Assembly: GCA_902558815.1 (NCBI GenBank)
Contig: CACEFF010000002.1
Location: 1-64,000 of the forward strand
Origin: an uncultured Pelagibacteraceae bacterium
GTDB taxonomy: Bacteria; Pseudomonadota; Alphaproteobacteria; Pelagibacterales; Pelagibacteraceae
Length of the DNA stretch: 64,000 bases
Reading direction: 5' to 3'
The notes under the pieces are model-generated. The model was not told the DNA's origin and ran no database searches. It saw only the letters and a program-made list of their open reading frames with translations. Positions within the stretch are counted from its first letter, which is position 1, and each line of letters opens with the position of its first letter. A program made the translations under genes and the position numbers. Below are positions 1-19,093 of this stretch, one piece after another.

Positions 1-1250
1 TATGCAGTTTTTTCATTAATATTTTTATTATAGAAACTATAAAAAACAGTTAATACAAAAGCACAGCAAAATAAGTCAGCCAATAAAAATAAATATAAAA
101 TATCAAATCCTCTAGATGCAATAACGAAAGAAATCAAAGATAAAAATAAAATTATATATTTAGAAAAATTTAAATAATTTATTTTTTTTCTCAAACTTAA
201 AGTTGCTTTACCATCTACAACAATTAGGCTTGATATTGCATTTATTAAAGTGTCAACTGTAGAAATTGTTAATGCTAAACCAAGTACTACAACAAATAAA
301 GATAATAGCTCTGTTTGTTCTTTAAGCAATAATGTAAAAAATCCTAGATCAGGTCTATTTGTTGGGTCTATTGAAAAAGCAACCATTCCAGTAAATCCCA
401 TATAAAAAACTACTGGTACAATTATAAAGAAAGATATAATTAAACTTTTTCTTAAAATTTCATAATTTTTTGCTGCATATACTCTTTGCCAATTACCCTG
501 GTGAAATAGATTGGTAGCAGCAACTGCAATAAAAAAGGTTAAACCAGCAGTATAACTAGGTATATAAGATGAACTTAAAAGATGAGGATTCTTTTTATTT
601 ATAAAATCAAAAGAAAATTCTGATCCATAGAAGGAGTTTATATATACTAACGAGATCAATAAAAGAATTCCAACGACAATCATCTGTATATTGTCTGTAA
701 AAATTGATGCTCTTAAACCTCCATACAAAGTATAGGCTAATGTGGATAGTAGTACAATCAAAGCAGTAATCCAAAGTTCAGTACCTGATATATAATTTAT
801 CAAAACTGCAACTGCTGTAACCTCAGCACATAAAAAAATAAACATATAAAAAATTGTCATTAATAAAATTAGTTTGAATAAACTTTTTCCAAATTTTTTT
901 CTCATAAACTCAATTAAAGAAGATCCCTTGGGAAACTCTTTTCTAATTTTTTTCCCTAAATATATTAAAAAAAACATTGGAAAGGCTGTACCTAATGAAT
1001 AACCAATAATTGCACCAATTCCTCCCCATGTTGAAGCAGAAGCAGGCCCAAATAAAATCCATGCTCCTAATGCTGAGGCAGTTAAACTTGTTGTTAAAGA
1101 AAATGTTCCAATATTTCTATTCGCAGTTAAATAATTGTTAAGACCTTGATATTTTTTTGAATTATATAAACCAAGAAAAAGAAATATTAGACTTATAAGG
1201 ACTACTAATATTAATGATGTAGATTGGCTTAAAAAATATGTTTTATCCAT
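1..1250 (-). CDS. thiV: Sodium:solute symporter, ThiV-like (partial, 3' end beyond window)
   Basis: About 416 residues are visible, starting at the ATG at 1248-1250; the 3' end lies beyond base 1. The translation (starts MDKTYFLSQSTSL) is a chain of hydrophobic segments typical of the SSS family, with the family-like stretch GPASASTWGGIGAIIGYS near residue 70 and a conserved LYGGLRASIFTDNIQMIV-type segment further on. A TPP riboswitch lies directly upstream, and its closing stem reaches the ribosome binding site (AAAGGGAAAATT before ATG). In Pelagibacter a symporter with this arrangement, ThiV, is the proposed importer of the thiamin pyrimidine precursor HMP. The family assignment is seen in the sequence; the substrate is inferred from the riboswitch and the published SAR11 precedent. 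Confidence 0.85.
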   Translation of the reverse strand, partial: MDKTYFLSQSTSLILVVLISLIFLFLGLYNSKKYQGLNNYLTANRNIGTFSLTTSLTASALGAWILFGPASASTWGGIGAIIGYSLGTAFPMFFLIYLGKKIRKEFPKGSSLIEFMRKKFGKSLFKLILLMTIFYMFIFLCAEVTAVAVLINYISGTELWITALIVLLSTLAYTLYGGLRASIFTDNIQMIVVGILLLISLVYINSFYGSEFSFDFINKKNPHLLSSSYIPSYTAGLTFFIAVAATNLFHQGNWQRVYAAKNYEILRKSLIISFFIIVPVVFYMGFTGMVAFSIDPTNRPDLGFFTLLLKEQTELLSLFVVVLGLALTISTVDTLINAISSLIVVDGKATLSLRKKINYLNFSKYIILFLSLISFVIASRGFDILYLFLLADLFCCAFVLTVFYSFYNKNINEKTA

Positions 1251-1253
1251 AAT

Positions 1254-1320
1254 TTTCCCTTTCTGAATTACCGGACAGGTTCTAAGGGTTTAATCTCAGT
1301 CTGTTAAGACACCCCTTTAA
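1254..1320 (-). promoter_or_regulatory. TPP (THI-box) riboswitch
   Basis: Read on the minus strand, this contains the TPP aptamer landmarks in order: GGGGUGU, a small P3 hairpin (GUCU...AGAC), CUGAGA, ACCC, GAACCUG, a P4/P5 hairpin with CCGGUAAU, and AGGGAA. A closing P1 helix can form between AUUUU just upstream and AAAAU just downstream of the core, which covers the spacer between the Shine-Dalgarno and the thiV start. TPP binding would therefore hide the ribosome binding site, so control of translation initiation is the likely mode; no separate terminator hairpin is seen. Confidence 0.92.
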
Positions 1321-1327
1321 AATATTT

Positions 1328-1615
1328 TTATACTTTATTATCCATAATTTCAACCATGCATTTAGTTGCGTACTCGCGCCATTCTGAAGAACTTTTTCCT
1401 TTAAGACTATTTAGATGATTTCGATTATTTTGAATGTCATCTTTATGTTTAATTTTATCTTTTTCCTCTAAATTTTTTTCCATGTTATTTAAATTTAATT
1501 CCATTGCATTAATCCAATTATTTCCAAGTTCTATACATTTATTATCATCTTTTTCATCACAAATTTGTTTAAAAAAATTAAAGATAACATCGTCTGTTTT
1601 TATCGAGTCATTCAT
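1328..1615 (-). CDS. Hypothetical protein, 95 aa
   Basis: I do not recognise this small protein. It is polar and charged, rich in Lys, Glu, Asp and Asn, with no signal peptide or membrane segment, and it is probably mostly helical. It has three cysteines (in ICDEKDDNKCIELG and ATKCMVEI) and a Trp-containing SSEWREYATKC segment near the end. Its ATG overlaps the stop of the upstream flavin oxidoreductase (TAATG), which suggests translational coupling and a place as last gene of the tct operon. Its stop lies just before the thiV riboswitch. The translational coupling supports it being real; no function is proposed. Confidence 0.7.
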   Translation of the reverse strand: MNDSIKTDDVIFNFFKQICDEKDDNKCIELGNNWINAMELNLNNMEKNLEEKDKIKHKDDIQNNRNHLNSLKGKSSSEWREYATKCMVEIMDNKV

Positions 1616-2199
1616 TATATTTTTATCTTATCTATTTGAGCCTCTGCTTCTCTTATAGATTTTTCGTAATCTAATGCCATCTGATCAGCGCTGATAATTT
1701 CTACTTTATTTATACCAAAAAAATTCAAAATAAATTTTAACCAGGGTGTTAAAAAGTCCTCTTCACTGTTTAATTTTGTTCCTCCTGAGGTAATTACTAA
1801 AAAAGCTATCTTATTTTTAAGGAGCCCCTCTCTTCTACCATTTGGTTTAAATCTAAAAGTTTCACCAATTCGTGCTGCAAGATCAGACCATGCTTTCAAA
1901 GTTGCTGGAGGTCCATAGTTGTAAATAGGTGCTGATATTATTATAATGTCACTTTCTTTAAGCTCTTTAACTAAAGTGTCAGATAACTCAAACATTTTTT
2001 TATGATGTTCTGTCTGATCTTTTTCTTCTATTTTCATTCCAGACTCTGTGAGGCCAGATACAAAAACCATTTCGTCATCAAGATCTCTGTATATAACTTC
2101 ATCCTCAGGTTTTTTTATTTTATCTAATAGTTTTTTTGCTAATGCCCTTGAAGTTGAACCTTTTTTTCTAGCACTTGAGTCTATTTGATAAATTTTCAT
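1615..2199 (-). CDS. FMN-dependent NAD(P)H oxidoreductase, AzoR/flavodoxin-fold family
   Basis: A 194-residue flavodoxin-like protein. The N-terminus has the beta-strand plus phosphate-binding loop of the NAD(P)H quinone/azoreductase family (IDSSARKKGSTSRALAK, residues 6-22), a PIYNYGPPATLKAWSD segment around residue 91 that shapes the FMN and quinone site, and a later VITSGGTK loop. Such enzymes are cytosolic homodimers that reduce quinones or azo compounds by two electrons at the expense of NAD(P)H. It lies 6 bases after ccdA and shares TAATG with the next small gene, so it is in the same transcription unit as the tct cluster. The physiological substrate cannot be told. Confidence 0.82.
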   Translation of the reverse strand: MKIYQIDSSARKKGSTSRALAKKLLDKIKKPEDEVIYRDLDDEMVFVSGLTESGMKIEEKDQTEHHKKMFELSDTLVKELKESDIIIISAPIYNYGPPATLKAWSDLAARIGETFRFKPNGRREGLLKNKIAFLVITSGGTKLNSEEDFLTPWLKFILNFFGINKVEIISADQMALDYEKSIREAEAQIDKIKI

Positions 2200-2205
2200 A
2201 ATTTA

Positions 2206-2913
2206 TTATCCAAAGTTTTGTAAGAATGGAAAAATATTTAATAAATAAAATCCTAAACCTTGCAGTTGATTAGTTAATATCAAAATACCAGTAATTAAAA
2301 GAATTATTCCCCCAATTTTAGATACTAAATTAATATTTCTTTTGAAATTTTTTGAAAATATCAAAAATTTCTGCATTAAATAACCTGATAAAATAAATGG
2401 TATTGCTAAACCAAAAGAATAAAAGAATAAAAGTAAAATTCCTTTTATTATGTTTTCCTCAGTGGCTGCTAAAACTAAAATTGATCCTAATATTGGACCT
2501 ATGCAAGGAGTCCATCCAAAAGCAAAGGCCATACCAATTAAAATTGGACTATAAAAATTCTTATTTGTTTTAGTTTCAATTCTTTTTTCATAATTTAAAA
2601 ATTTTAAATTAATGATCCCAATAATGTGAAGTGAAAAGAGAATTATTACTAATCCAGCTGCTATTCGAAGTTCATTAGAATTTTGAAGCAATACTTGGCC
2701 TAAGAAAGTAGATGCAGCCCCAAAAATTATAAAGACAATAGAAAAGCCAACAGTAAATAATATAATTGGTATTAAATTAATATTTTTTTTTTCAATTAAT
2801 TCATTTATTGAGCTTCCTGAAATATAAGAAATATATCCTGGTATTAGTGGTAAGACACATGGGGATAGAAAGCTTACTAAACCAGCTCCAAAAGCAATAA
2901 TTAATTCAAACAT
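2206..2913 (-). CDS. ccdA: Cytochrome c biogenesis protein CcdA (DsbD transmembrane-domain family)
   Basis: A 235-residue, six-helix membrane protein of normal CcdA length. The two redox cysteines are in the expected motifs: C19 in SFLSPCVLPLIPGY and C137 in FGWTPCIGP. CcdA moves electrons from cytosolic thioredoxin across the inner membrane to periplasmic thiol proteins for cytochrome c maturation or general disulfide reduction. It lies 19 bases after the FAH-family gene and 6 before the flavin oxidoreductase, inside the tct run, although no functional link to that cluster is obvious. The family call is firm; which periplasmic partner it serves is unknown. Confidence 0.93.
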   Translation of the reverse strand: MFELIIAFGAGLVSFLSPCVLPLIPGYISYISGSSINELIEKKNINLIPIILFTVGFSIVFIIFGAASTFLGQVLLQNSNELRIAAGLVIILFSLHIIGIINLKFLNYEKRIETKTNKNFYSPILIGMAFAFGWTPCIGPILGSILVLAATEENIIKGILLLFFYSFGLAIPFILSGYLMQKFLIFSKNFKRNINLVSKIGGIILLITGILILTNQLQGLGFYLLNIFPFLQNFG

Positions 2914-2932
2914 TAATTTTATTTAAAATATT

Positions 2933-3781
2933 TTATCCTTTGTATGGAAAAACTTTATGTTTTTGTGTTCCAAGATTATCAACACCTAAAACAACTTCTT
3001 CACCACCCTTCAAAAAATGTGGGGGTGACATATTTTCTCCCACTCCTGGTGGAGTTCCAGTACAACAAATATCTCCAGGATGCAAACTCATACAAGAACT
3101 CATATAAGAAACTAGAGTTTTAATATCAAATATCATTTGTTCTGTATTTCCTGTTTGCATTCTTTTACCATCAACATCTAAAAACATATTAAGTTTTTGA
3201 AAGTTTGGTAGTTCATCCTTTGTGACAATATAAGGGCCTATAGGGCCAAAAGTATCAAAACCTTTTCCTTTATCCCAAGTTAAACCTTTATTTTTTTGAA
3301 AGTCTCTCTCACTAACATCGTTCACCAAAAAAAATCCCAACACATGGTCTAAAGCAGATTCTACACTAACATTAACTGCTTTTTTCCCAATTACAAAACC
3401 TAACTCCACTTCCCAATCTGTATGATTGGAACCTTTTGGAACTATAATTGGATCATTGGGTCCCGTTATACAACTGGTAAATTTAGAGAATATAATTGGT
3501 TCTTTTGGTATTGGTAAATTTTGTTCTTCTGCATGATCTTTAAAATTTAATCCTATTCCTATAAATTTTGATGGATTTAAAACACAAGCTCCGATTCTTG
3601 TGTTAGATTCTAGTTTGGGTAAACTTGAAATATCAGTTTTGTTTATTTTATCAATTGTATCAAAATTTAATGTTTCAGGATTAAAATCAGTAATTAATGA
3701 TGATAAATCTCGATAGTTATTATCCTTATCTATAATGGCTGGTTTTTCTTTTCCAATTTGACCTATTCTACATAACTTCAT
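2933..3781 (-). CDS. Fumarylacetoacetate hydrolase (FAH) family protein, probable 2,4-diketo acid hydrolase
   Basis: 282 residues, standard for bacterial FAH-superfamily C-C hydrolases. The divalent-metal ligands are visible as E124 and E126 (DWEVELG) and D155 (LVNDVSERD), and the catalytic-dyad region NFKDHAEE has H83. The family cleaves 2,4-diketo acids or related oxo acids, usually releasing pyruvate. Placed right after an SDR dehydrogenase and close to an enolase-superfamily acid-sugar dehydratase, it fits the hydrolase step of the L-rhamnonate/L-fuconate diketo pathway (2,4-diketo-3-deoxy acid to pyruvate plus lactate). That role is inferred from neighbours; homoprotocatechuate-type or oxaloacetate activities are alternatives. 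Confidence 0.85.
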   Translation of the reverse strand: MKLCRIGQIGKEKPAIIDKDNNYRDLSSLITDFNPETLNFDTIDKINKTDISSLPKLESNTRIGACVLNPSKFIGIGLNFKDHAEEQNLPIPKEPIIFSKFTSCITGPNDPIIVPKGSNHTDWEVELGFVIGKKAVNVSVESALDHVLGFFLVNDVSERDFQKNKGLTWDKGKGFDTFGPIGPYIVTKDELPNFQKLNMFLDVDGKRMQTGNTEQMIFDIKTLVSYMSSCMSLHPGDICCTGTPPGVGENMSPPHFLKGGEEVVLGVDNLGTQKHKVFPYKG

Positions 3782-3794
3782 TCATTCTCCTTTT

Positions 3795-4544
3795 TTAATA
3801 AGTTGCTCTTCCACCACTCAAGTCGAAAACTGCTGCAGTGCTAAAAGAGTTTTCATCGCTTACCAACCAACAAACTAAAGAGGCCAGCTCTTCTATTTTT
3901 GCAAATCTATTTCTTGGTATCTTAGATAGCATATAATTAATATGTTCATCTGTCATCTGGTCAAAAATTCTCGTTTTTGCTGCTGCAGGTGTTACACAAT
4001 TAACAGCAATATTTTTATCAGCAAGCTCTTTACCTAAAGATTTTGTTAAACCAATTACACCAGCTTTAGATGTGCTATAGGCACTAGCGTTTGGGTTACC
4101 TTCTTTTCCAGCAATAGAAGCTATATTTACAATTCTTCCATAATTATTTTTAATCATATGTGGAACAATAGCTTTGCAACAATAAAATGTTGAATTCAAA
4201 TTCAATTCGATTACTTTCTGCCATTCATCTAAAGGATAATCCCATACTTTAGCGTTCATTCCTGTCATCCCTGCATTATTCACAAATATATCTATTTGAC
4301 CCAATTTCTTCTCAAGTTCATCAATTGATTTTTTTACAATTTTGAAATCTGTTATATCAACTATTTGATAACTAAAATTTTCAGAATTAATTTCTTTTTT
4401 AGCTTTTTCAGACTCTTCTTTATCTATATCCCAAATTACAACTTTACCACCTGATTGAATAATTCTTTTTGTAATAGCTAAACCAAAGCCTTGGGCACCA
4501 CCAGTTACTATCGCAACTTTATTTGTTAAATTATATTTATTCAT
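3795..4544 (-). CDS. SDR-family dehydrogenase, probable 2-keto-3-deoxy acid-sugar dehydrogenase
   Basis: A 249-residue classical short-chain dehydrogenase. It has the NAD(P)-binding TGGAQGFG (residues 14-21), NNAG at 89-92, and the catalytic S143, Y156 and K160 (YSTSK). The C-terminus FDLSGGRATY resembles SDRs that oxidise 2-keto-3-deoxy-L-fuconate or -rhamnonate. Its ATG overlaps the tctA stop (ATGA), so it is translationally coupled to the transporter, and the FAH hydrolase follows after 13 bases. This supports a 4-dehydrogenase step that makes the 2,4-diketo acid for the hydrolase. The substrate is an inference; the family is certain. A FabG-like reductase is less likely because fabG is at 55370. 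Confidence 0.88.
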   Translation of the reverse strand: MNKYNLTNKVAIVTGGAQGFGLAITKRIIQSGGKVVIWDIDKEESEKAKKEINSENFSYQIVDITDFKIVKKSIDELEKKLGQIDIFVNNAGMTGMNAKVWDYPLDEWQKVIELNLNSTFYCCKAIVPHMIKNNYGRIVNIASIAGKEGNPNASAYSTSKAGVIGLTKSLGKELADKNIAVNCVTPAAAKTRIFDQMTDEHINYMLSKIPRNRFAKIEELASLVCWLVSDENSFSTAAVFDLSGGRATY

Positions 4545-6007
4545 ATTTTTTTCTTTCTTAATAATGGAAAAATTAATGCAATAAAAGATAAAATGAAAAA
4601 CGTAACAACTATTGGTCTAGTCAAAAACAATAGCCAATTCCCCTCAAATATTACCAAAGATTGCCTTAAGGTACCTTCAACTAATTCTCCTAAAATTAAA
4701 CCTATTATTACAGGAACTACTGAAAAACCATAACGTCTCATAAAAAAACCAATTACTCCAAAGAATAACATTATCCATACATCTAACATTGATTGGCTTA
4801 GTGAATAAGTTCCACACACAGAAACTGCAAAAATCATGGGCCAAAGCAATTTGTTTGGCACTAAAGTAATTCGAGCAAATATTTTGGCTCCAAAAAAACC
4901 AAATATAAAAAATAAGATATTTGCAATCAACATTGACCCAAAAATACCATATAAAAATTCTGGTTGCTCTCTAAAGAGATCAGGTCCAGGTCTAACCCCG
5001 TGTATTATTAATCCAGTTAAAATTACAGCTGTGGTAGCACTTCCAGGTATCCCTAATGCTAAAGTGGGAACCATAGCACCACCAGTAGCCGCATTATTTG
5101 CTGCTTCAGCACCTGCTATTCCTTCTACTGAACCTTTTCCAAATTCCTCAGGATTTTTAGACCATCTTTTTGCCTCAGAATATCCTATAAGAGATGCAAC
5201 TGTTCCTCCTTCTGCAGGTAATACTCCAATAAAAGATCCAATTCCTGAAGATCTTAAAATGGTTTTCCAAGTTTTTTTATAATCCAATAGTGATGGAAGT
5301 TTTACTGCTTTTAAAGCTACTCTTTTAAAAACTTTATCCAATAAAGTTGACTGAGTTAACATTTCACTTATTGCAAACAATCCAACAACTACAGGAATAA
5401 AACCTATTCCTTCTGACAATTCATTAATTCCATAAGTAAATCTTTCAATTGAAGTCATAAAATCTTTACCAATTGTAGATATCAATATTCCAAATGCTCC
5501 AGCTATTAAGTTCTTAATTGGGCTTCCTTCACCAATAGATGCGAGCATAGTTAAACCAAAAATTGCTAAGGCAAAATATTCAGGCTGTCCAAACTCATAA
5601 GCAAGCTGTGCAAGTAAAGGTGCGAAAAAAACTAAAACAACCACACTAAAAATACCTCCAATAGTACTAGATACTGTTGCCATGCCTAAAGCTCTTCCAG
5701 CTTCCCCTTTTTGAGCCAGTGGATAGCCATCAAGACAAGTTGCCGCCGCCGCTGGTGTTCCCGGAGTATTGATTAGGACTGCCGTGATCGCTCCACCATA
5801 AGTAGCTGAACAATAAATTGCTGTTAATAAAACTATCGCTGATAGAGGGTCCAAGGTCATAGTAAATGGTAAAATTAATGCACCACCTGTGGTTGGCCCA
5901 AGACCAGGTAGTACTCCAAGTATCAAACCAAATAATGTTCCAAAAACTAAAACAATCATTAATTTTGAACTCATTAAAGGTGCAAACATTAAAGAAAGAT
6001 TTTCCAT
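4541..6007 (-). CDS. tctA: Tripartite tricarboxylate transporter large permease TctA
   Basis: 488 residues with about a dozen membrane helices, the normal size for TctA. The signature PGLGPTTGGALILPFT (from about residue 34) and the later INTPGTPAAAATCLDGYP loop are conserved in the family. TctA forms the inner-membrane channel of a secondary transporter fed by the periplasmic protein TctC with the small subunit TctB. It follows tctB by one base and overlaps the SDR gene start. A short part of the coding strand around 5720-5790 is clearly more G+C-rich than its surroundings, matching the PGTPAAAA loop. The imported substrate is a carboxylate of unknown identity. Confidence 0.95.
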   Translation of the reverse strand: MENLSLMFAPLMSSKLMIVLVFGTLFGLILGVLPGLGPTTGGALILPFTMTLDPLSAIVLLTAIYCSATYGGAITAVLINTPGTPAAAATCLDGYPLAQKGEAGRALGMATVSSTIGGIFSVVVLVFFAPLLAQLAYEFGQPEYFALAIFGLTMLASIGEGSPIKNLIAGAFGILISTIGKDFMTSIERFTYGINELSEGIGFIPVVVGLFAISEMLTQSTLLDKVFKRVALKAVKLPSLLDYKKTWKTILRSSGIGSFIGVLPAEGGTVASLIGYSEAKRWSKNPEEFGKGSVEGIAGAEAANNAATGGAMVPTLALGIPGSATTAVILTGLIIHGVRPGPDLFREQPEFLYGIFGSMLIANILFFIFGFFGAKIFARITLVPNKLLWPMIFAVSVCGTYSLSQSMLDVWIMLFFGVIGFFMRRYGFSVVPVIIGLILGELVEGTLRQSLVIFEGNWLLFLTRPIVVTFFILSFIALIFPLLRKKKI

Positions 6008-6008
6008 T

Positions 6009-6518
6009 TTAAACTTGATAGTAAATATTAGTAATTATACCCGGGGGAAATCTTAAACCCAAAATCGTTTCAAAAAAAATAAAAACGATTATTGGAAAAA
6101 TTATACTTACTAATATCAAATAAAATAATCTTCTCTCACCCCAGCTATAAGAGACAAAAACTGACAATAATGATATCGCTAAAAAAAAGTCTAATGTTTT
6201 TGATACAATAATAAAAAATATAAAACTTAATAAAGTTAAGAAAAAAGTTTTAGGTAGTTTTTTTTCGATTTTCCAAGGATTTTTAATAGATAAATAATAA
6301 ACTACTAAAGTTAAACTAATTATTAAAAGCAATAATCCTTTTGGAAATGTTGCTGGCTGTATACCTCTATTTAGAATTGGTGGGACAATATCAAAAGTAA
6401 AGGTACTGAATAATAAAATAGTAGAAACAAGAATTATTGTAAAAGAAACTTTAAATTCATCTTTAAAAAAAAAGGGCAAGTTTTTACTTGCCCTTTTTTG
6501 CTTTTGTACATTACTCAT
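6009..6518 (-). CDS. tctB: Tripartite tricarboxylate transporter small subunit TctB
   Basis: 169 residues with four predicted membrane helices, typical of TctB. The ATG at 6516-6518 is the only reasonable start: no other Met lies before the first helix (FTIILVSTILLFSTF). Codons 7-19 (Lys-rich, then KNLPFFFK) lie inside a perfect 14-bp hairpin followed by nine U residues, an intrinsic terminator placed within the reading frame. TctB is the poorly conserved accessory membrane subunit of the TctABC importer. The gene lies 25 bases after tctC and one base before tctA. Readthrough of the hairpin would be needed to express tctB and everything downstream. Confidence 0.9.
   Translation of the reverse strand: MSNVQKQKRASKNLPFFFKDEFKVSFTIILVSTILLFSTFTFDIVPPILNRGIQPATFPKGLLLLIISLTLVVYYLSIKNPWKIEKKLPKTFFLTLLSFIFFIIVSKTLDFFLAISLLSVFVSYSWGERRLFYLILVSIIFPIIVFIFFETILGLRFPPGIITNIYYQV
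6465..6499 (-). terminator. Intrinsic terminator inside the 5' end of tctB
   Basis: On the minus strand a perfect 14-bp stem (AAAAAAGGGCAAGT / ACTTGCCCTTTTTT; arms 6486-6499 and 6468-6481) with a four-base AAAA loop is followed by a run of nine T, down to 6465. It begins about 45 bases past the tctC stop and about 16 bases into tctB. It is one of the most stable hairpins in the window. Partial termination here would give much more tctC (binding protein) than permease mRNA. Confidence 0.85.
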
Positions 6519-6543
6519 TTTTAAATGTACTTACTTTTTATAA

Positions 6544-7515
6544 TTACTTTATGTAACCTAAAGCTTTAAGCTGTGCAGTCATTTCAGTAAGCATTTCTTC
6601 CATTTGCTTACCCCATTCATCAGCACCAACAACACTTGATTCATCAAGTCCAATTTCCGTTAAGAAATTTTTGTAATAGTTGTGGCTCATAGCTTTCATC
6701 ATTCCAGCTTCTAGTTCTTTTACTCTTGCAGCTGGAGCTCCTTTTTTAGTTACAAATCCTCTAACAGTAGATAAAGAAACAGGAATACCTAATTCTTTTG
6801 CTGTTGGAGAATCTCCAATTTTAGCCATTCTATTATTTGCTAATACAACAGAAACACATAAAGTTCCGTCATTAATTTCTGTCAATGCTTCACCTAAATT
6901 TAAAACACCTACATCAATATCCCCCTTGACCAAGTTCGTTTTAATTGGTGCTACACCTTTGTATGCAACAATAGTTGGATCTTTTAATCCACCTTTTTTT
7001 GTGAAAGCGATTGCACTAACATCATCAATACCACCAACGTGAGTTGTTCCATATTTAAGTGACTTTGACTTTTGGACGCTAATAAATTTTTTAGCATCTT
7101 TGATGTCAGACTTACAATTAACAACAAATAATTGTGGGTCATCAGTACCTCTAGCTAGAGGTTGCATATCACTAATTTTAACTTTAGTTTTTCCTAAAGC
7201 CATAGAAACAGCATGACCAGTAGTCCATGTTAGAGTGTGTTGACCATCAGCTGGTAAGCTCATCATATAATCCATAGATACAGCTCCACCACCACCTTTT
7301 TTGTTAACTAATTGCATGTCTTGTTTAAGAACCCTTCTTGCTCTTAAAAGCATCATTCTAGTAGTAACGTCAGTACCACCACCAAATCCAGCGTGAGTAA
7401 TTGCTTGTATAGCACTATCTGCTCTTGCAGATACAGTCATTAAAGGTATTGCTATAACAAAAAATTCAGTCACAAAGAACGCAGCGGCTAAGAAAAGTTT
7501 AAAACTTTTTTTCAT
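6544..7515 (-). CDS. tctC: Periplasmic tricarboxylate-binding protein TctC (Bug family)
   Basis: 323 residues with a clear N-terminal signal peptide (basic MKKSFK, hydrophobic core, likely cleavage after VSARA near residue 32). The mature part begins with the Bug-family stretch HAGFGGGTDVTTRMMLLRA and has the expected two-lobe binding-protein length. It captures a carboxylate in the periplasm and delivers it to TctA/TctB. It is the first gene of the minus-strand run, divergent from the PdxA-family gene by 68 bases that must hold both promoters. Its codon use and G+C are a little richer than its neighbours, as expected of a highly expressed binding protein. The ligand is unknown; the catabolic genes around it suggest a sugar acid. 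Confidence 0.95.
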   Translation of the reverse strand: MKKSFKLFLAAAFFVTEFFVIAIPLMTVSARADSAIQAITHAGFGGGTDVTTRMMLLRARRVLKQDMQLVNKKGGGGAVSMDYMMSLPADGQHTLTWTTGHAVSMALGKTKVKISDMQPLARGTDDPQLFVVNCKSDIKDAKKFISVQKSKSLKYGTTHVGGIDDVSAIAFTKKGGLKDPTIVAYKGVAPIKTNLVKGDIDVGVLNLGEALTEINDGTLCVSVVLANNRMAKIGDSPTAKELGIPVSLSTVRGFVTKKGAPAARVKELEAGMMKAMSHNYYKNFLTEIGLDESSVVGADEWGKQMEEMLTEMTAQLKALGYIK

Positions 7516-7583
7516 TATTTCCCTCTTTAGTTAATTTATAATTAAATATTTAAGCATAATCTGTTACAAAGTTTAAGAACAAA

Positions 7584-8582
7584 ATGAGTAAAAATAAAAT
7601 TAAAATTGCTATATTATTAGGTGATCCATCGGGTATTGGGCCCGAATTGGTCTCAAAGCTACTATGTGAAGAAATTATTAATAAAGCAAACATAGTTTTA
7701 ATTGGTGAGAAAAAAATTTTAGAAGAAGGAAATAAAATTTCTGGAAAATCACAAGATTTAAATTATGTTGAAAAATTTGAACAGATAAATTTTGAGGAAG
7801 GAAATAAATTTTTTTTAGACATCTCAAAAGGTAAAAATCACAAATATAACTTATCTGAATGTTCAAAAGAGTCAGGAGAAAGTGTTCTAGAGGCTCTCAA
7901 TTTAGCATTAGATCTTGCGAAACAAAATAAAATAGATGCTATTAACTTTGGTCCATTTAATAAGACAAGTATGAAGATGGGTGGAAATACCCATTCTGAT
8001 GAACTTCATTTAATGGCTGAAAAATTAGATGTAAAAAATTTTTTCTGTGAATTTAATGTTGTAGACAACTTTTGGACTGCTAGAGTGACATCACATATTC
8101 CTATTAGAGAAGTGCCTAATCATGTTAAGAAAGAAAATATTATTAAACCAATAAAACTTATAGATAAAGCAATGAAACTTAATGGAATTAAAAATCCTCG
8201 TGTAGCTGTACAAGCATTAAATCCTCATGCAGAGTTTGGTGTTGAAGAAAAGAATGAAATAATTCCAGCAATAGAAGAGGCAAAAAAACAAGGTATTAAT
8301 GCAGATGGTCCTTTGCCATGTGATACTTCTTTTATTACAGCTTATAAAAATAAAAATCATGATTGTATAGTTGGCATGTATCATGATGCACTACAATCTG
8401 GTCTCAAAGCATTTGGTTTTGACAGAGGTGTTACGGTTCAAGGTGGTTTGCCATTGCCTATTACTACACCAGCTCATGGTACCGCTTTTGATATTGCAGG
8501 AAAAAATAAAGCAAACTTAGAACCAACCTTACAATCGTTTAAAATAGCATTAACGATGGCAGAAAATAAATCTAAAACATGA
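7584..8582 (+). CDS. PdxA-family dehydrogenase, probable catabolic paralogue
   Basis: 332 residues, full length for the 4-hydroxythreonine-4-phosphate dehydrogenase family. Signature motifs are intact: GDPSGIGPE (13-21), metal ligands H171 (TSHIPI), H215 (LNPHAEFG) and H267 (MYHDAL), and the nucleotide-loop [13 protein letters not shown] near the C-terminus. It is divergent from tctC and overlaps the next gene by four bases (ATGA), so it belongs to a catabolic cluster rather than a vitamin B6 operon. Relatives in such settings (PdxA2, TphB) oxidise hydroxy-acid phosphates or dihydrodiols with decarboxylation. A second, more diverged PdxA is at 52731. Whether this copy acts in catabolism, in B6 synthesis, or both cannot be decided from sequence. 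Confidence 0.85.
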
Positions 8583-9754
8583 CAAAAATTAAAGATGTTA
8601 AAACCTCTATTTATAAATGGACAGGTGAAATAGTTCCACCCGCTCAAAATTTTTGCACTAACCCGACTGATGCTCTCAGAGAGTCAGGTGATAAAATGAA
8701 ATCATTTAGATTTCATCAGTGGATGGTTTGTGAAGTAATAGCTGATGATGGAACTGTTGGTTTGGGTAATGCTGCACTGGCACCTGAGGTAACAAAAAAA
8801 GCGATAGATTGTTATTTAAAAGATTTAGTAATTGGTGAAGACCCTTTTGATTACGATTATTTATGGGATAAAATGTATAGAAGTACAATGGCTTGGGGGA
8901 GAAAAGGAATTGGAATGATTGGAATTTCAGCAATTGATCTTGGAATTTGGGACTTAATGGGTAAGTTAAAAAAAAAACCAGTATTTGAATTGCTCGGAGG
9001 TAGAACCAAAGATAAGATTCCAGTATATGCCTCAAAATTATATAGCCAACCAATAAAAGATCTACAAATAGAAGCTGAAAAATATTTAAATGAAGGTTTC
9101 AAAATGTTTAAAATGCGCTTTGGTTGGGGACCAAAAGACGGTGCTGAAGGAATAAAAAAAAATATTGAGTTAGTGAATGCTGTTAGAGAAGTGGTTGGAT
9201 ACGAAACTGATCTTATGCTTGAAGCTTATATGGGATGGGATTTAGAATATTCAAAAAAAATAATACCTGAGCTAATAAAATTCAAACCAAAATGGTTAGA
9301 AGAGCCAGTAATACCTGATGATATTCCTGGATATGCAGAATTAAATGCTATGGGAGATGTTCCTATTGCAGGAGGCGAACATGAATTTAGTTATTTAGGA
9401 TTTAAACATTTATTGGAACTTAAAGCAGTCAGTTTTATTCAATATGATGCAAATAGAGTTGGAGGTATAACACCCGGACATAAAATAAATACATTAGCTG
9501 AAAAATATGGAGTGCCTGTAATTCCTCATGCAGGTCAAATGCATAACTATCATTTGACAATGGCGCATAACAACTGCCCCTTTTCAGAATTTTTTCCTGT
9601 TCACCAAGTTGAGATAGGAAATGAATTATTTTATTATTTATTTAAAGGGGAACCTGAGCCCAAAAATGGCTTTATTAATTTAGATGATGATACTCCAGGA
9701 TTAGGGATTTCTATTAATGAGAGATATAAATCAGATTTCAAAATTGTAGAATAG
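8579..9754 (+). CDS. Enolase-superfamily acid-sugar dehydratase (L-rhamnonate dehydratase-like)
   Basis: 391 residues of the mandelate racemase/muconate lactonizing enzyme superfamily: N-terminal capping domain (about 1-125), then a TIM barrel. Likely Mg ligands are E215 ([10 protein letters not shown]), E241 (WLEEP) and E267 (AGGEHE), with H317 in [12 protein letters not shown] as the barrel-end general acid/base. The run from WLEEP to PFSEFF closely follows L-rhamnonate dehydratase RhmD. Such enzymes remove water from a sugar acid to give a 2-keto-3-deoxy acid. Position 215 is Glu where RhmD has Asp, so the exact substrate may differ. It is coupled to the PdxA-family gene and lies opposite SDR and FAH genes that would take the product further. 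Confidence 0.85.
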
Positions 9755-9758
9755 TTGA

Positions 9759-11201
9759 TTAACCTTTAATACCCATGTGAGTATATTTCACATTTAAATA
9801 ATCCTTTATAGCCATAGAACCACCTTCTCTACCGTATCCGCTTTGCTTAATTCCGCCAAAAGGAGCTTCTGCAAGAGCAACCATCGGTGTGTTAACAGCA
9901 ACTGAGCCTGTTTCTAATTGTTCTGATGCAAGATGTGCTGTCTCCATTGAGTTGGTACAAACATAACTGCACAAACCAAGCTCATGATTGTTAGCTCTTT
10001 TAATTACATCATCAAAAGATTTAAATGATAACATCGGGACCAATGGCCCAAAAGGTTCTTGTTTCATTATCGTAAAATCGTCTTTTACATTATCAAATAT
10101 TGTAGGCTCATAATAAAAACCTTTGTTAAATCCTGATGGTCTTTTCCCGCCTAACAAAACTTTTGCGCCTTCTTGTTTTGTTTTTTCAACTAATTCCTCT
10201 ATTTCATTCAATCTCTTTTTTGTAGTTAATGGACCTAATTGAGTTGCAGGATCCATACCGTCGCCTATTTTCAGTTTTTTTGTTTTCTCAATAAATAAAT
10301 TTACAAATTCATCTTTTTTTCTCTCATGAATATAAAATCTATTTGGAGAAATACAAACTTGACCATTGTTTCTAAATTTAGCAGCAATTGCCATATCAGC
10401 TGCTTTTTTTATATCAGCATCATCAAATACTATAAAAGGTGAATGACCTGAAAGCTCCATTGTTACTCTTTGAACTTTATCTGCAGCTTGTTTCAATATT
10501 AATTTACCTACTCTGGACGATCCAGTGATTGAAATTTTTTTGACTATATCTGAAGATATTAATTGTTGAGCAATACTCGGTGGATCACCTGATAAAAGAT
10601 TTACTACGCCTGGGGGGACACCACACTCTCTACATATATCAACCATCTCCATTACAATTCCTGGAGTTATTACATCAGGTTTAATTATAACAGAACAGCC
10701 TGCTGCTAATGCAGTTGAAATTTTTCTAGCAGATAATACTGCAGGAAAATTCCAAGGTGTTAAAGCTGCAACAACACCAACTGGTTGATAGTAGACATGC
10801 ACTCTTGTATCCTCAAATCTGCTTTCAACAGTTTGTCCATAAATTCTTTTTGTTTCTTCAGCATTCCATTCAAAAATATCTGCAGCACCACCTACTTCAC
10901 CTTTAGCTTCTGCAAAAGGTTTTCCAACTTCAAAAGTCATCCATTTAGCAAGGACATCTTGTTTCTCTCTTATTTTGTCTGCTATTTTTCTGATAATGTA
11001 AGATCTTTGCCATGGAGCAGTTTTTTTCCAAACCTCTAATCCTTTTGCAGCAGACTTTAATGCTCTATCAACATCCTCTGGTGTAGCTTTAGATGCATAC
11101 CCAATAATTTCTTCATTTGCAGGATTAATTACTTCGTATGTAGATTTATCAGATGATTGACTCCACTTACCATCAATGAATTGACCAAAATTTTCGTACA
11201 T
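9759..11201 (-). CDS. NAD(P)-dependent aldehyde dehydrogenase family protein
   Basis: 480 residues, a typical soluble ALDH. Visible catalytic features: N151 in TPWNFP, K174 in IIKPD, general base E249 in MELSGHSP, nucleophile C283 in NNGQVCISPNR, and the C-terminal GGIKQSGYGREGG motif. The sequence leans towards succinate-semialdehyde or lactaldehyde dehydrogenase subgroups. It converges on the RhmD-like gene with four bases between the stops. If the cluster does degrade deoxy-sugar acids, oxidation of lactaldehyde or of a semialdehyde would be its natural job, but this is an inference from position. Confidence 0.88.
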   Translation of the reverse strand: MYENFGQFIDGKWSQSSDKSTYEVINPANEEIIGYASKATPEDVDRALKSAAKGLEVWKKTAPWQRSYIIRKIADKIREKQDVLAKWMTFEVGKPFAEAKGEVGGAADIFEWNAEETKRIYGQTVESRFEDTRVHVYYQPVGVVAALTPWNFPAVLSARKISTALAAGCSVIIKPDVITPGIVMEMVDICRECGVPPGVVNLLSGDPPSIAQQLISSDIVKKISITGSSRVGKLILKQAADKVQRVTMELSGHSPFIVFDDADIKKAADMAIAAKFRNNGQVCISPNRFYIHERKKDEFVNLFIEKTKKLKIGDGMDPATQLGPLTTKKRLNEIEELVEKTKQEGAKVLLGGKRPSGFNKGFYYEPTIFDNVKDDFTIMKQEPFGPLVPMLSFKSFDDVIKRANNHELGLCSYVCTNSMETAHLASEQLETGSVAVNTPMVALAEAPFGGIKQSGYGREGGSMAIKDYLNVKYTHMGIKG

Positions 11202-11303
11202 AAATTCAATTTAGCATTACTATAGGTTGTGTCTACTATGTAATTTTTACACATTAATTTTTAAAAATTAGATGGTAATCTATTTAAAAAAAAGGAGTTC
11301 AAT

Positions 11304-11621
11304 ATGAAAGCATATATAATGGGAAACTACACTGAAAAAGCTTTTATGGGTTTTTTAAAAGATCCAACGAGCGATAGAAAAGCTGTTGTAGAACAATTAA
11401 CTAAGGCTATGGGCGGAACTATGCATAGCATGGACATTGTTAGAGGTTCTTACGATTTTATAGTTGTTACTGACGTTCCAAGTTTTGAGGACTTTGCAGC
11501 AATTAAATTAGTTGTTGAGTCATCAGGCGCTGTAAAAAACTTGACGATACTTGAGGCGATTGATTTTACAAAAGCTACAACAAAAGCTAGTAAAATTGGT
11601 TACAAGGCTCCGGGTCAATAA
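11304..11621 (+). CDS. GYD domain-containing protein
   Basis: A 105-residue protein of the GYD family, small alpha/beta ferredoxin-like proteins found mostly as single-domain homo-oligomers of unknown function. The family pattern is visible: MKAYIMGNYTEKAFMGFLKDP at the start, then MGGTMHSMDIVRGSYDFIVVTDVPSFE in the middle. A strong Shine-Dalgarno (AAGGAG) stands 8 bases before the ATG. It is a single-gene unit between divergent and convergent neighbours and has its own hairpin terminator, which suggests good expression. No role can be assigned. Confidence 0.88.
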   Translation: MKAYIMGNYTEKAFMGFLKDPTSDRKAVVEQLTKAMGGTMHSMDIVRGSYDFIVVTDVPSFEDFAAIKLVVESSGAVKNLTILEAIDFTKATTKASKIGYKAPGQ

Positions 11622-11629
11622 TTTTTTAG

Positions 11630-11673
11630 TATAACTTCTGGCTGCGGACTGGAAGTTATATTAATTCTTTTTT
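11630..11673 (+). terminator. Probable intrinsic terminator after the GYD gene
   Basis: A perfect 9-bp inverted repeat (TATAACTTC at 11630-11638, GAAGTTATA at 11652-11660) with a 13-base loop, followed by a run of six T at 11668-11673. It starts 8 bases after the GYD stop. The T-run is about seven bases from the stem, so it is not an ideal terminator. On the minus strand the bases past the hairpin are A-rich, so it should serve the plus strand only. The run extends into the 3' end of the convergent thioesterase gene. Confidence 0.55.
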
Positions 11674-12134
11674 AATTTTGAAGAAAATTTAAGATTCTCA
11701 TTATTAAACTTTGAAGAATGTTGTTGGATATAATCATCCATAATTTTTACTTTTTCATCCTCAAATTCAGAAACTTTTCTACTATTTAGATCAACATATA
11801 GAGCAAGGACTTCAATGGTTGATGCAAGAAACTTTTTTTCTTTATGGATCATTTCCATTTTATATTGTAGCCTTTTTTTATCATGGTCAAAATAAACTAA
11901 ATTAACATCAACCTCATCATCAACTTTGAGCTCTTGATTATAAGTAATATTAGACTCTACGATCATGGTACTTTTACCAGTTGTTTTTGCTGAATGCTCA
12001 CCCATTTTAAAAGTATCATTTAAAATATCTGCTCCAAATTTATCAAATATCAAAAGATAATAGGATACATTCATATGATTATTGTAATCGATCCAATCCT
12101 TAATTATTTTTTGTGAGCTTAAAAAAACTGACAT
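11661..12134 (-). CDS. Hotdog-fold acyl-CoA thioesterase
   Basis: 157 residues with the 4-hydroxybenzoyl-CoA-type thioesterase pattern: IIKDWIDYNNHMNVSYYLLIFDKF near the start, with the D-x-N-x-H-M-N catalytic motif, then a beta-rich region (MIVESNITYNQELKVDDEVDV and RLQYKMEMIHKEKKFLASTIEVLALYVDL). It resembles the thioesterases found in carnitine/betaine metabolism, which hydrolyse betainyl-CoA and similar esters; that is only a resemblance. The Lys-rich C-terminal tail is not conserved in the family. It follows the DUF779 gene by 24 bases on the same strand. Confidence 0.82.
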   Translation of the reverse strand: MSVFLSSQKIIKDWIDYNNHMNVSYYLLIFDKFGADILNDTFKMGEHSAKTTGKSTMIVESNITYNQELKVDDEVDVNLVYFDHDKKRLQYKMEMIHKEKKFLASTIEVLALYVDLNSRKVSEFEDEKVKIMDDYIQQHSSKFNNENLKFSSKLKKN

Positions 12135-12158
12135 GGCTATTAAAACTTTGATTTTTAT

Positions 12159-12530
12159 TTAATGATTTGGATTTTCATTGTCTACTACGAGACATATTTC
12201 AGATTTCGTTAAAAATCTTCTTCCTGTTCCGTTGTCTAAAGAAAACATTCCACCAATGCCTTTAACAGCATCAATTGTTAAATCTGTATGTTTCCACTTC
12301 TCATATTGGTCTGCATTCATATAGAAAGGAACTCCACCAATCTCACCTAATTTTATATCATTGTCACCTAATGGAAATTCACCCTCCTGGAAACACATAG
12401 GTGCACTTCCATCACAACATCCCCCAGATTGGTGAAACATTAATTTTTCTCCATATCTCTCTTGGAGTTCTGATAATAAATTTAGTGCTGAGTGAGTTGC
12501 AGATACTTTCATTTTTAATCTCTGGCCCAT
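12159..12530 (-). CDS. DUF779 domain-containing protein, aldehyde dehydrogenase partner
   Basis: 123 residues with the DUF779 signature: LMFHQSGGCCDGSAPMCF (three closely spaced cysteines that may bind metal), IGGVPFYMNADQYEKWKHTD, and GTGRRFL at the C-terminal side. DUF779 genes commonly sit next to acetaldehyde-type aldehyde dehydrogenases, as here, with the ALDH 34 bases upstream. The biochemical role is not established. Two starts are possible: ATG at 12528-12530 inside a stable hairpin, or M7 at 12510-12512 just past it, preceded by AGAGATTAAAA; M7 would free the start codon from the hairpin. Confidence 0.88.
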   Translation of the reverse strand: MGQRLKMKVSATHSALNLLSELQERYGEKLMFHQSGGCCDGSAPMCFQEGEFPLGDNDIKLGEIGGVPFYMNADQYEKWKHTDLTIDAVKGIGGMFSLDNGTGRRFLTKSEICLVVDNENPNH

Positions 12531-12550
12531 GATTACGAATCATGGACCAG
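12522..12550. promoter_or_regulatory. 29-bp near-perfect palindrome/hairpin over the DUF779 start
   Basis: CTGG, one mismatch, CCATGATT, a 3-base centre ACG, AATCATGG, mismatch, CCAG. The 8-bp inner arms are perfect and a C:A mismatch separates them from the 4-bp outer arms. It lies between the ALDH stop and the DUF779 coding region and covers the first possible ATG. There is no T-run after it, so it is not a classic terminator. It could be an RNA stability or translation-control hairpin between the two cistrons, or a protein-binding dyad. Confidence 0.6.
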
Positions 12551-12564
12551 TATATATTATTTGT

Positions 12565-14109
12565 TTAAAAGAAACCTAATTTCTTTTCAGCATAAGACAC
12601 ATGCAAGTTCTTATTTTGTCTGTAGTGACTTAGCATCATTTTATGAGTCTCTCTTCCAACTCCTGATTGTTTGTAACCACCAAATGGTGAGTGAGCTGGA
12701 TAAGCGTGATAACAATTAGTCCACACAATTCCTGCTTGTATTGCTCTACCCATTCTATAAGCAATATTTCCATTTCTTGTCCATACACCTGCACCTAAAC
12801 CATAAAGAGTATCATTAGCAATTTCTAATGCTTCTGCCTCATCTTTAAATTTAATCACAGATACAACAGGGCCAAATATTTCCTCTTGAGAAATACGAGA
12901 TTTGTTGTTGGTCTCAAATATTGTAGGTTGGATATAATTCCCTTTTTCCAATCCACTATTTAGTTTACCAACAGCTCCTCCAGTAAGAACTTTTGCACCT
13001 TCTTTTTTTCCAAGATCAAGATAAGACTTAATCTTTTCCATTTGTTCAACTGAAGCTTGAGCCCCAATCATAGTTTCCATTTTTAACGGATTATCCTGAA
13101 CAACTGCTTTAGTTCGAGCTATACACTTTTCCATGAATTTATCATAAATAGATTCTTGAACTAATGCTCTACTTGGACAAGTACATACTTCACCTTGGTT
13201 TAAGTTAAACATTACAAAACCCTCAACACATTTGTCTAAAAAATCATCATCTTTTTCCATGATATCTTCAAAGAAAATGTTTGGAGATTTTCCACCTAAT
13301 TCCAATGTAATTGGAATAATGTTTTGGGCAGCGTACTGCATGATCAATCTTCCAGTAGAGGTTTCGCCAGTAAAAGCAACTTTTGCAACTCTTTTAGAAG
13401 ATGCTAAAGGTTTACCTGCCTCTAATCCAAAACCGCTCACTATGTTTACAACTCCTGGAGGTAATAAATCACCAATCAGTTCCATCATAACCATAATTGA
13501 AGCTGGTGTTTGTTCTGCTGGTTTTAAAACTGAACAATTACCTGCAGCTAAAGCTGGAGCTAATTTCCAAGTAGCCATCAATAATGGAAAGTTCCACGGA
13601 ACAATCTGACCAACTACACCTAGTGGTTCAGGTATATTGTAAGAGTATTGAGAATTACTTATCTCAGCAACAGAACCTTCTTCAGCTCTGATTACTCCAG
13701 CAAAATATCTCCAGTGGTCAATCACCAATGGTAAATCTGCCGCCATACACTCTCTTATAGGTTTTCCATTATCTAAACACTCAGCTGTAGCTAATAAATT
13801 TAGATTTTTTTCAAGAACATCAGCTATTTTCATCATTATATTTGATCTCGTAGTGATGTCAGTTTTTCCCCAAGTTTTAAAAGCTTCGTGAGCTGCATCT
13901 AATGCTGCTTCAACGTCTTTTTCATTTGATCTTGCCACTGAACAGATAGTCTCATTTGATATCGGGCTAGGATTATCAAAATACTTGCCTGATAAAGGTT
14001 CTACAAATTTACCATTAATGTAGTTTCCATATTTAGATTTAAATGGAAATTTTACCTTTAAATGAGATGTATCTAATACAGATGACACTTTCATTGCTTC
14101 TGCACTCAT
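12565..14109 (-). CDS. Aldehyde dehydrogenase (AldB/ExaC acetaldehyde-type)
   Basis: 514 residues from the ATG at 14107-14109, chosen because a strong Shine-Dalgarno (AAGAGGAG) lies 8 bases upstream and the length then matches the AldB family. Catalytic residues in this numbering: N173 (PWNFP), K196 (VLKPAEQ), E270 (LELGGKSP) and C309 (GEVCTCPSR). The C-terminal [17 protein letters not shown] matches acetaldehyde/chloroacetaldehyde dehydrogenases that oxidise short aldehydes to acids with NAD(P). The DUF779 partner follows. The frame stays open for 64 more codons to an ATG at 14301, giving a Lys/Arg-rich extension described separately. Confidence 0.92.
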
Positions 14110-14301
14110 TTTATTTCTCCTCTTTTTATTGTTAGTTGACTTAATGTTATTGTCTTTTCTAGACTTTTTTAAACGTTTCTTAGTCGCAGTTTTTTTTGCA
14201 ACTTTTTTTTTCGTTTTTATTTTTTTTCTAGAAGTTTTGACCAATTTTAATTTTCTATTTTTGGTCTTTTTTTTTGCTATTTTTTTTCTTTGAATAGCCA
14301 T
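14110..14301 (-). other. In-frame Lys/Arg-rich extension upstream of the aldehyde dehydrogenase
   Basis: From the ATG at 14299-14301 the frame runs without a stop for 64 codons into the aldehyde dehydrogenase. The peptide is extremely basic (repeated [21 protein letters not shown]-like pattern, some Thr, Ser and Asn), resembling histone-H1-like or nucleic-acid-binding tails. The ATG has only a weak upstream Shine-Dalgarno, whereas the internal start at 14109 has a strong one. It may be an alternative long isoform, a translated leader, or non-coding A-rich DNA that happens to be open. The lack of any stop in such an AT-rich stretch mildly favours translation. Confidence 0.5.
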
Positions 14302-14416
14302 GACTTATTAAACTAGATATTGTTAAGAGTTACTATTTTTATTAATTTTTATTTTCTACTTATAATTGTAAAATACCATATATTGTGTTTAAAATTTTAA
14401 TTATTAATATTTATTA

Positions 14417-15325
14417 ATGGATAAAAACTTTTTTAAAATAACAAGAATATTAGACGGTGGAATGGGTCAAGAGCTTCTTAGTAGAGGAATGAAGCCCAAG
14501 GGAACCTTATGGAGTGCTACCGCTTTACTAAATGAAAACTATCACGATCTTTTACTAAATACGCATTTAGATTATATCAAGGCGGGAGCAGAAGTTATCG
14601 TTACAAATACATTTGCAACTAGAAGAATTAGATTAATAGAAAATAAGGTTGGGAACAAGTTTGAGTATTTAAATATTAAAGCTGGTGAAATTGCAAAAAA
14701 AACAAAAGATGATTATCCAAATATATTGATTGCTGGAGGGCTGCCTCCCCAAAATTCTACTTACAAAGCTGATGATAGATCTAAAAATATAATAAAAGAT
14801 GATTTTTATAATCAAGCAAAGTTAATAAACCCATTTATTGATTTTTTTTATTTTGACGTTTTGAGCAGTATTAAGGAGATAAATATTGCAATCCATAGTA
14901 TTGAAGAATTCAAAAAACCTTATTTAATAGGAGTACATATTTCTGAAGGCACTAGATTACCAAGTGGTGAGAAAATTTCAGAACTAATAGATAAATTAAA
15001 AAATCAAAAATTACTTGGTGTTATTTTGTCTTGTGTCTCACCTGAAAACTATAAATTAAATTTAAATGAAATTAAAAGCTTAGGAGTTCCGTTTGGATTT
15101 AAATTAAATGGATATTTAAAAACTGCACCATTATCTAATATAAACAAAGCTAGTAATAAAAATGATTTCTTACAGCCAAACAATTTTTTAGGTAAAAGAA
15201 AAGATTTATCTCCTAATAAAATGCTAGAGTTTGTGAAAGAGTTTAAAGATTCTGGAGCTACAATTCTAGGTGGGTGTTGTGAAACTACACCAGCACATAT
15301 TAAATCATTTGCATCACTTAAGTAA
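14417..15325 (+). CDS. Homocysteine S-methyltransferase family protein
   Basis: 302 residues, a single TIM-barrel methyltransferase domain. The N-terminal DGGMGQELLSRGM is typical, and the three zinc-binding cysteines are in place: C206 (VILSCVSPE) and C287, C288 (ILGGCCETTPAHI). The family transfers a methyl group from betaine, S-methylmethionine or a similar donor to homocysteine to form methionine; in SAR11 betaine or a sulfonium donor is plausible. It is alone, and its end overlaps the convergent EamA gene by 12 bases. The methyl donor cannot be read from the sequence. Confidence 0.87.
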   Translation: MDKNFFKITRILDGGMGQELLSRGMKPKGTLWSATALLNENYHDLLLNTHLDYIKAGAEVIVTNTFATRRIRLIENKVGNKFEYLNIKAGEIAKKTKDDYPNILIAGGLPPQNSTYKADDRSKNIIKDDFYNQAKLINPFIDFFYFDVLSSIKEINIAIHSIEEFKKPYLIGVHISEGTRLPSGEKISELIDKLKNQKLLGVILSCVSPENYKLNLNEIKSLGVPFGFKLNGYLKTAPLSNINKASNKNDFLQPNNFLGKRKDLSPNKMLEFVKEFKDSGATILGGCCETTPAHIKSFASLK

Positions 15326-16680: not shown

Positions 16681-16821
16681 TATTCAACTTATAATTGTTA
16701 GTTATTTCAAATGTTTAATTATACACTCATGTAAAAAATGCATAGGTGTTATTAAGTAAAAGTACAATCTTTAACAGTCTTTATTTGGTATCACAAGGCC
16801 CAGAATTATAAAGGAGAGAAA

Positions 16822-18228: not shown

Positions 18229-18231
18229 ATA

Positions 18232-18402: not shown

Positions 18403-18459
18403 GTAAAATAAATATATTATATATGCATTTTTTGCAATACTGATATGTTCAAAATGGGA

Positions 18460-19088: not shown

Positions 19089-19093
19089 AAATA

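Follow-up and report, generated by a model that had tools for sequence, protein, structure and literature searches.

Why does a structure with the features of an intrinsic terminator lie inside the reading frame of a transporter gene? The question is raised by the tctCBA operon in a 64,000-nt stretch of DNA (the window) from the 1.1-Mb draft genome (G000:C2) of an uncultured Pelagibacteraceae bacterium. The closest relatives of the window's tctB are found in Pelagibacteraceae and Pelagibacterales, i.e. in SAR11, bacteria that rely on binding proteins, with few regulators and very little room between their genes.

Pfam matches to the ORFs place the genes of a tripartite tricarboxylate transporter on the minus strand in the order tctC-tctB-tctA. 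The solute-binding protein (SBP) is encoded by tctC (6544–7515; PF03401, 1.8e-19), the small membrane subunit by tctB (6009–6518; PF07331, 1.9e-11, residues 28–158) and the large membrane subunit by tctA, which lies 3′ of tctB (4541–6007; PF01970, 8e-159). SDR and FAA-hydrolase genes follow tctBA on the same strand, and the neighbours of tctCBA between 2933 and 11201 also include PdxA-like, enolase-superfamily and aldehyde dehydrogenase genes. The top NCBIfam match of the enolase-superfamily neighbour was L-rhamnonate dehydratase, under the cut-off of that model. These neighbouring genes suggest that the substrate of tctCBA is a sugar acid.

A hairpin and a U tract inside the tctB reading frame

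On the minus strand, positions 6468–6499 form a perfect 14-bp stem-loop, which we call H2, with the loop AAAA at 6482–6485. It reads AAAAAAGGGCAAGT-AAAA-ACTTGCCCTTTTTT and then TTT, and has five G-C and nine A-U pairs closing the 4-nt loop. The G-C-rich core comprises 8 bp (6474–6493). The U9 tract (6465–6473) is codons 16–18 of tctB (Phe-Phe-Phe), and its first six U also pair with the A tract of H2. Counted along tctB, the stem starts at base 20 with A6 GGGCAAGT, followed by the AAAA loop, ACTTGCCC and U9, and the G-C core starts at base 26. A sequence-only reading of this DNA had described a perfect 14-bp, GC-centred hairpin with U9 inside tctB, which was confirmed by sequence and folding; it had put the beginning 16 bases into the gene, a position that our coordinates correct. 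It had also proposed that the same bases encode residues about 7–19 of TctB, and the stem and U9 indeed make up codons 7–18.

Folding of the RNA of 6460–6545 (minus strand) gave −24.5 kcal/mol, whereas dinucleotide shuffles averaged −9.38 (sd 2.49) and none of them was as good (0/200); the observed energy is 6.1 standard deviations under the shuffles. Such a hairpin is rare in the window. Among 2138 overlapping 75-nt sense coding windows from mechanically picked ORFs of at least 300 nt, only two reached a hairpin score of at least 18, both at H2, and tctB was alone among 59 gene starts in doing so. At the 41 same-strand junctions, tctC/tctB scored 24 and 12530/12565 scored 23, and the remaining 39 scored 4–10. 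The hairpin at 12522–12550 (minus strand; CTGGTCCATGATTCGTAATCATGGGCCAG) is strong, has no U tract and overlaps the beginning of the DUF779 frame; it stands between an aldehyde dehydrogenase gene (12565–14301) and the DUF779 gene (12159–12530).

A consensus terminator scan of positions 1–20000 returned 14 sites where 8.7 (sd 3.3) were expected. H2 was reported on the plus strand only, with six T after the stem; it was absent from the minus-strand list because the minus-strand U run had been assigned to the stem, and so the scan alone gives no support for the minus-strand reading. H2 is terminator-like on both strands.

A G-C-rich stem followed by a U-rich tract, as expected of an intrinsic terminator, was thus found between the leading SBP gene and the genes of the membrane subunits; we infer co-transcription of these genes from their spacing. 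The core lies 50 nt past the tctC stop codon. Its position is not intergenic: it falls within codons 7–18 of tctB, so that the putative terminator overlaps translated codons. No Rfam family matched at gathering scores anywhere in the window, and H2 was therefore rejected as a known RNA family.

The stem is kept while its bases change

We compared 129 tctB loci, made up of 49 orthologues (six genera of one family) and 80 relatives kept out of 176. As the same strains are partly repeated, counts were made on distinct sequences, which comprised 79 distinct junctions. The orthologue list had 68 rows; besides the 49 loci, 15 of 18 others were read (all except G158, a contig-end fragment, G198:C1 and G069:C5), and G218 has two overlapping rows that count as a single locus.

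The H2 stem was kept in 129/129 loci. In every one of them the core had an energy of −10 to −15 kcal/mol, at least seven T occurred among the first nine bases after the stem, and a d'Aubenton-Carafa-type score was positive. The stem core stands 24–26 nt from the start codon in 127 of the 128 loci for which an ATG was called.

RNAalifold, run on the 79 distinct junctions, gave a consensus stem of 12 bp with six pairs changed on both sides. Five of them are in the G-C-rich core and the sixth is the A-U pair directly below it. The window itself is a compensatory variant at two of the six: it has AGT AAA AAC (Ser-Lys-Asn) where its relatives have AAC AAA AGT (Asn-Lys-Ser), and the stem is still perfect despite this exchange of residues. 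Loop-adjacent pairs were broken in three of the 79 sequences (L048, L051 and L052).

The peptide over the core is variable. We observed sixteen different peptides, all with the stem. In L050–L052 a reading phase unused elsewhere runs through the stem, which therefore encodes a very different peptide (KGGFLSAL, KGRFNSAL and KGRFNAAL in place of the usual RANKSLP). In L086, RANKSLP is kept and one stem pair is weakened to U-G. No relative that keeps the peptide and loses the stem was present among the 129 loci. The comparison that the sequence-only reading had called for, namely a stem retained while the TctB peptide changes, thus came out in its favour, with compensatory changes and sixteen peptides.

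Two irregular loci were seen. In L028 (~1494–1530), an extra A in the A tract makes the called frame open at the next ATG (MYKNKKRANK..), and tctB of L049 (G218) is apparently frameshifted further down; either irregularity may be a sequencing error or a real change.

Selection on the RNA structure

If the hairpin were a matter of chance or a by-product, its bases would be conserved solely through the N-terminal peptide of TctB. Of the 128 loci in which an ATG was called, 92 do have RANKSLP over the core, and in 91 of these 92 the hairpin letters are identical, as this explanation would have it. However, when codons were redrawn synonymously with the peptide fixed (74 distinct sequences, 200 redraws each), none of the 14,800 redraws reached the observed stem. 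Synonymous codon use is frozen as well. Over codons 9–18 of tctB the majority codon had a frequency of 0.997 and 10/10 columns were frozen, including codons 16–18 as TTT; in conserved columns further down the gene the majority codon had 0.735 and 6/93 columns were frozen (106 distinct sequences in both cases). The rows for this test were chosen by hairpin position alone (116 loci, 106 distinct), which left out 13 of the 129: ten with another hairpin centre, two that were too short and one without a called ATG.

These results, together with the compensatory changes, the varied peptides and the three loci read in another phase, lead us to reject chance or peptide constraint as the source of H2. 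On the evidence of conservation, compensatory pairs, stems in another frame, failed redraws and synonymous freeze, the RNA structure of H2 is under selection, as judged from sequence comparison.

An inverted repeat around the tctB start codon

A second element, absent from the sequence-only reading, brackets the tctB start codon. This inverted repeat, H1 (6506–6530, minus strand), consists of GTACATT and AATGTAC (6524–6530 with 6506–6512), and the ATG (6516–6518) stands between its arms. The 3′ arm is codons 3–4 of tctB, which are as frozen as H2. Among 66 distinct start regions, a helix of at least 5 bp was found in 64 and of at least 6 bp in 63. H1 is altered on both sides in L043 (GTACACT/AGTGTAC), L048 (CGTGC/GCACG) and L050 (TACTAT/ATAGTA); the L048 (5 bp) and L050 (6 bp) variants are within reach of chance, being matched by 15% and 6% of shuffles, respectively. 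It is absent in L051 and L052 (genus g12). In L028 the called ATG lies inside the 3′ arm.

H1 and H2 considered jointly were 98.8% paired, against 22.8–59.3% for slid controls, and they contained seven double-change pairs, against 1.3 (sd 1.0) in shuffled alignments, none of which had as many (0/500). H1 contributed one double-change pair on the alignment, where L048 and L050 are misaligned, and taken by itself H1 has weak support from the alignment. Its role may be to gate readthrough, or to leave termination undisturbed by hiding the start codon.

Hairpins in other tctB genes and after other SBP genes

A second tctCBA operon in the same genome (L177; G000:C8:30843-31253 plus flanks) has a stem of its own within tctB (AGAGCAGTG..CACTGCTCT followed by U6, at bases ~1470–1530 of L177), and the GTG start codon of this tctB is inside the 5′ arm of the stem. 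The stem was present in 30/30 close loci and in 11/11 more distant ones (41/41); 7 of these 11 have a compensatory change to AAAGCA/TGCTTT. At least six U follow the stem in 40/41, the run being interrupted in L265. The 41 were read out of 55 listed places; L208 is the same as L177, and four unread places are C-terminal fragments.

More divergent tctB genes (L136–L147; 22–26% identity) all had a strong hairpin within bases 14–55 (12/12), with a poor U tract. In L133–L135 the hairpin lies between the genes (3/3). By eye, relative to a TFTFD motif, the TctB of these three loci begins ~17 residues later than that of the window, which looks as though carrying the RNA signal were the purpose of the N-terminal tail. 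At the level of the class (29 TctB loci, four cut by contig ends), strong hairpins were intergenic, absent or inside tctB; the last group includes L151 and L162 (bases 21–50) and L150, L164 and L166 (further in). These genomes are mostly GC-rich, and more strong hairpins are to be expected there by chance. The tctC-tctB hairpins of other Alphaproteobacteria are mostly without a U tract.

Strong hairpins are not confined to tct operons. For TRAP transporters, a strong intergenic hairpin was found at 25/25 dctP-dctQ junctions, always 5′ of the next start codon; the single dctM-dctQ junction had none. Here 30 of 42 places were read (L178–L207), and 26 of them have a long frame ending beside dctQ; L201, L205 and L206 have no such frame, and L198 is cut by a contig end and unplaced. 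Among ABC loci (L238–L263, with L245 unreadable), a strong hairpin followed 21 of 25 readable SBP genes, and none was seen in L238 and L253–L255; the next gene at these loci is a presumed permease. The hairpins stand ~8–55 nt past the stop codon in 25/25 dctP and 20/25 readable ABC cases, and at 70–102 nt in L239. Some TRAP and ABC hairpins have a long U tract and some do not. In L241 the hairpin, 20–45 nt past the stop, covers the ATG that opens the following frame and is possibly in-gene.

This distribution suggests a hairpin that goes with the end of the SBP gene; in tct operons it falls within the next gene. The sequence-only reading had proposed that H2 provides an excess of binding protein; strong hairpins after TRAP and ABC SBP genes, and none at dctM-dctQ, point in the same direction and leave that role probable rather than settled.

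Comparison with known systems

In Ruminiclostridium cellulolyticum, internal intrinsic terminators after ABC-importer SBP genes were demonstrated experimentally (PMC9045158). As at H2, the hairpin there follows the leading SBP gene, and the SBP transcript is in excess over that of the translocator; unlike H2, those terminators were sought in intergenic regions of >50 bp of ABC operons (PMC9045158). Internal terminators after SBP genes are already known from Clostridia, and H2 differs in its placement inside tctB.

Stabilising hairpins of the malE-malF REP and puf kind are intercistronic and are not known to need a U tract. Like H2, they stand between genes of unequal demand and favour the upstream product; unlike them, H2 has a conserved U tract and is in-gene. 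In pyrBI attenuation, the ribosome on pyrL decides readthrough. H2 resembles this type of attenuation in having an intrinsic terminator near translated codons that a ribosome can oppose, as seen in tests of ribosome-opposed intrinsic terminators in E. coli (PMC5021804). It differs in that pyrL is a leader peptide before the operon; here the codons are those of a structural transporter gene, and a regulatory effector is not known.

Candidate structured RNAs have been described in Ca. Pelagibacter ubique (PMC2704228). Among the examples of one motif in that survey, apparently the rhtB element, about half have 6–9 U behind them. A term search for 'tct' found nothing in its main text; the survey was aimed at long intergenic regions, and an in-gene element would therefore be outside its scope. 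RNA 3′ ends inside coding sequences are reported for E. coli (PMC7815308), and a Term-seq survey reports terminators that lie no more than 200 nt past a coding sequence (PMC12207403). Under iron limitation, sfu transcripts of Ca. P. ubique increased by factors of 16 (SBP), 10.4 (permease) and 5 (ATPase) (PMC2864753); these figures are inductions, not abundances, and concern an operon other than tct, and by analogy they are consistent with our reading of H2. Among titles and abstract openings, searched with terms that included tctC/tctB plus terminator, we found no description of the H2 element.

A probable leaky terminator and its alternatives

Given its structure, its rarity, its conservation through compensatory pair changes, its frozen codons and its placement after SBP genes, the best explanation is that H2 acts as a partial intrinsic (Rho-independent) terminator which gives an excess of TctC over TctBA. 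We put the probability of this at about 0.77. Most transcripts would end just past tctC, at the U tract of H2, and a minority would continue past it to cover tctB, tctA and the SDR and FAA-hydrolase genes; the cell would then produce more periplasmic TctC than membrane subunits. We infer the stopping of the polymerase at H2, its efficiency and the protein ratio. Because the stem and the U tract are within the frame, past the start codon, no internal promoter can bypass H2 for full-length TctB, and every full-length TctB message would have to pass it. The bases of H2 would be read twice, as an RNA structure and as codons 7–18 in a short N-terminal tail of TctB.

The main rival to the leaky terminator is a 3′-end stabiliser, in which the hairpin blocks 3′-to-5′ exonucleases, the tctC part outlives tctBA, and termination is secondary or absent. 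For H2 we regard this as unlikely. Its U tract is as conserved as its stem (at least 7/9 T in 129/129 loci, with the TTT codons frozen), which stabilisation alone would not need. A stabiliser is, however, the better fit for the related hairpins without a clear U tract, namely those of L136–L147, of several TRAP and ABC operons and, mostly, of the tctC-tctB junctions in other Alphaproteobacteria; hairpins such as those of L136–L147 imply that termination is not the sole use of hairpins here. The R. cellulolyticum study also argues that such stem-loops stabilise the upstream transcript (PMC9045158). It is improbable that the true tctB start lies 3′ of the hairpin, which would make the terminator an ordinary intergenic one with an unused upstream ATG. 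The window does have an in-frame TTG in the 3′ arm of H2, and the late-starting TctB of L133–L135 goes with an intergenic hairpin. Yet in 128/129 loci an ATG was called whose frame runs through the stem, insertions in the loop are of 3 nt, L030, L048 and L050 lack such an in-frame TTG, and past the U tract the window has no in-frame ATG, GTG or TTG ahead of the first membrane helix. Still less probable is action on the plus strand against antisense transcription, alone or bidirectionally: the scan did report H2 there with its six T, but the minus-strand run is longer (U9), the TRAP and ABC hairpins keep the sense position, and no plus-strand gene of the operon ends at H2. Nine unbroken U, in frame and after a stem, could also invite slippage of RNA polymerase and regulation of TctB by frameshifting; we give this hardly any weight and rejected it, as the homopolymer is broken or short in L035, L050, L051 and L052 with U-richness kept, and tctB is in frame as encoded.

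An addition to the leaky terminator, and not an exclusive rival, is that readthrough is decided by a ribosome that initiates on tctB or is in early elongation there, with H1 as the sensor. Such gating would provide the feedback link between tctB initiation and operon expression that the sequence-only reading had proposed. We consider this doubtful. The start-to-core spacing of 24–26 nt (127/128 ATG loci) and the conservation of H1 would agree with it, but the spacing may merely mirror the reading frame, and H1 is missing in L051 and L052. The GTG start within the 5′ arm of the second operon's stem is also in its favour; the TRAP hairpins all precede the next start codon, which argues that ribosome gating is no general need. 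The footprint of an initiating ribosome extends to about +15 to +19. The sequence-only reading had placed the hairpin inside this footprint; with the core starting at base 26 it is probably just outside, and a ribosome must probably advance several codons to melt H2. Inside translated frames, an intrinsic terminator can be opposed by ribosomes (PMC5021804), and a ribosome that follows close behind RNA polymerase on tctB could suppress termination, to an uncertain extent in vivo.

We also suggest, tentatively and as a possibility well short of even odds, that H1 and H2 form one module in which the tctB start codon is hidden during the terminator decision. H1 would fold once the start codon leaves RNA polymerase and keep ribosomes off while H2 forms. 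The terminator would thus be able to work inside a reading frame, and readthrough messages would open H1 later and be translated. The second tctCBA would combine both jobs in one stem, whose 5′ arm contains the start codon. The N-terminal tail of TctB would have been acquired to carry the RNA signal.

Implications for SAR11

SAR11 is among the most abundant groups of ocean bacteria. If the leaky terminator is real, the stoichiometry of SAR11 transporters would be set by a simple rule at the RNA level, namely that most SBP genes are followed by a hairpin, and tct operons would carry this signal within the codons of the next protein. The odd tail of TctB would be explained, and metatranscriptome counts of SBP and permease genes would differ by design. 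The tct operons would also offer a natural test of terminator function inside a translated frame.
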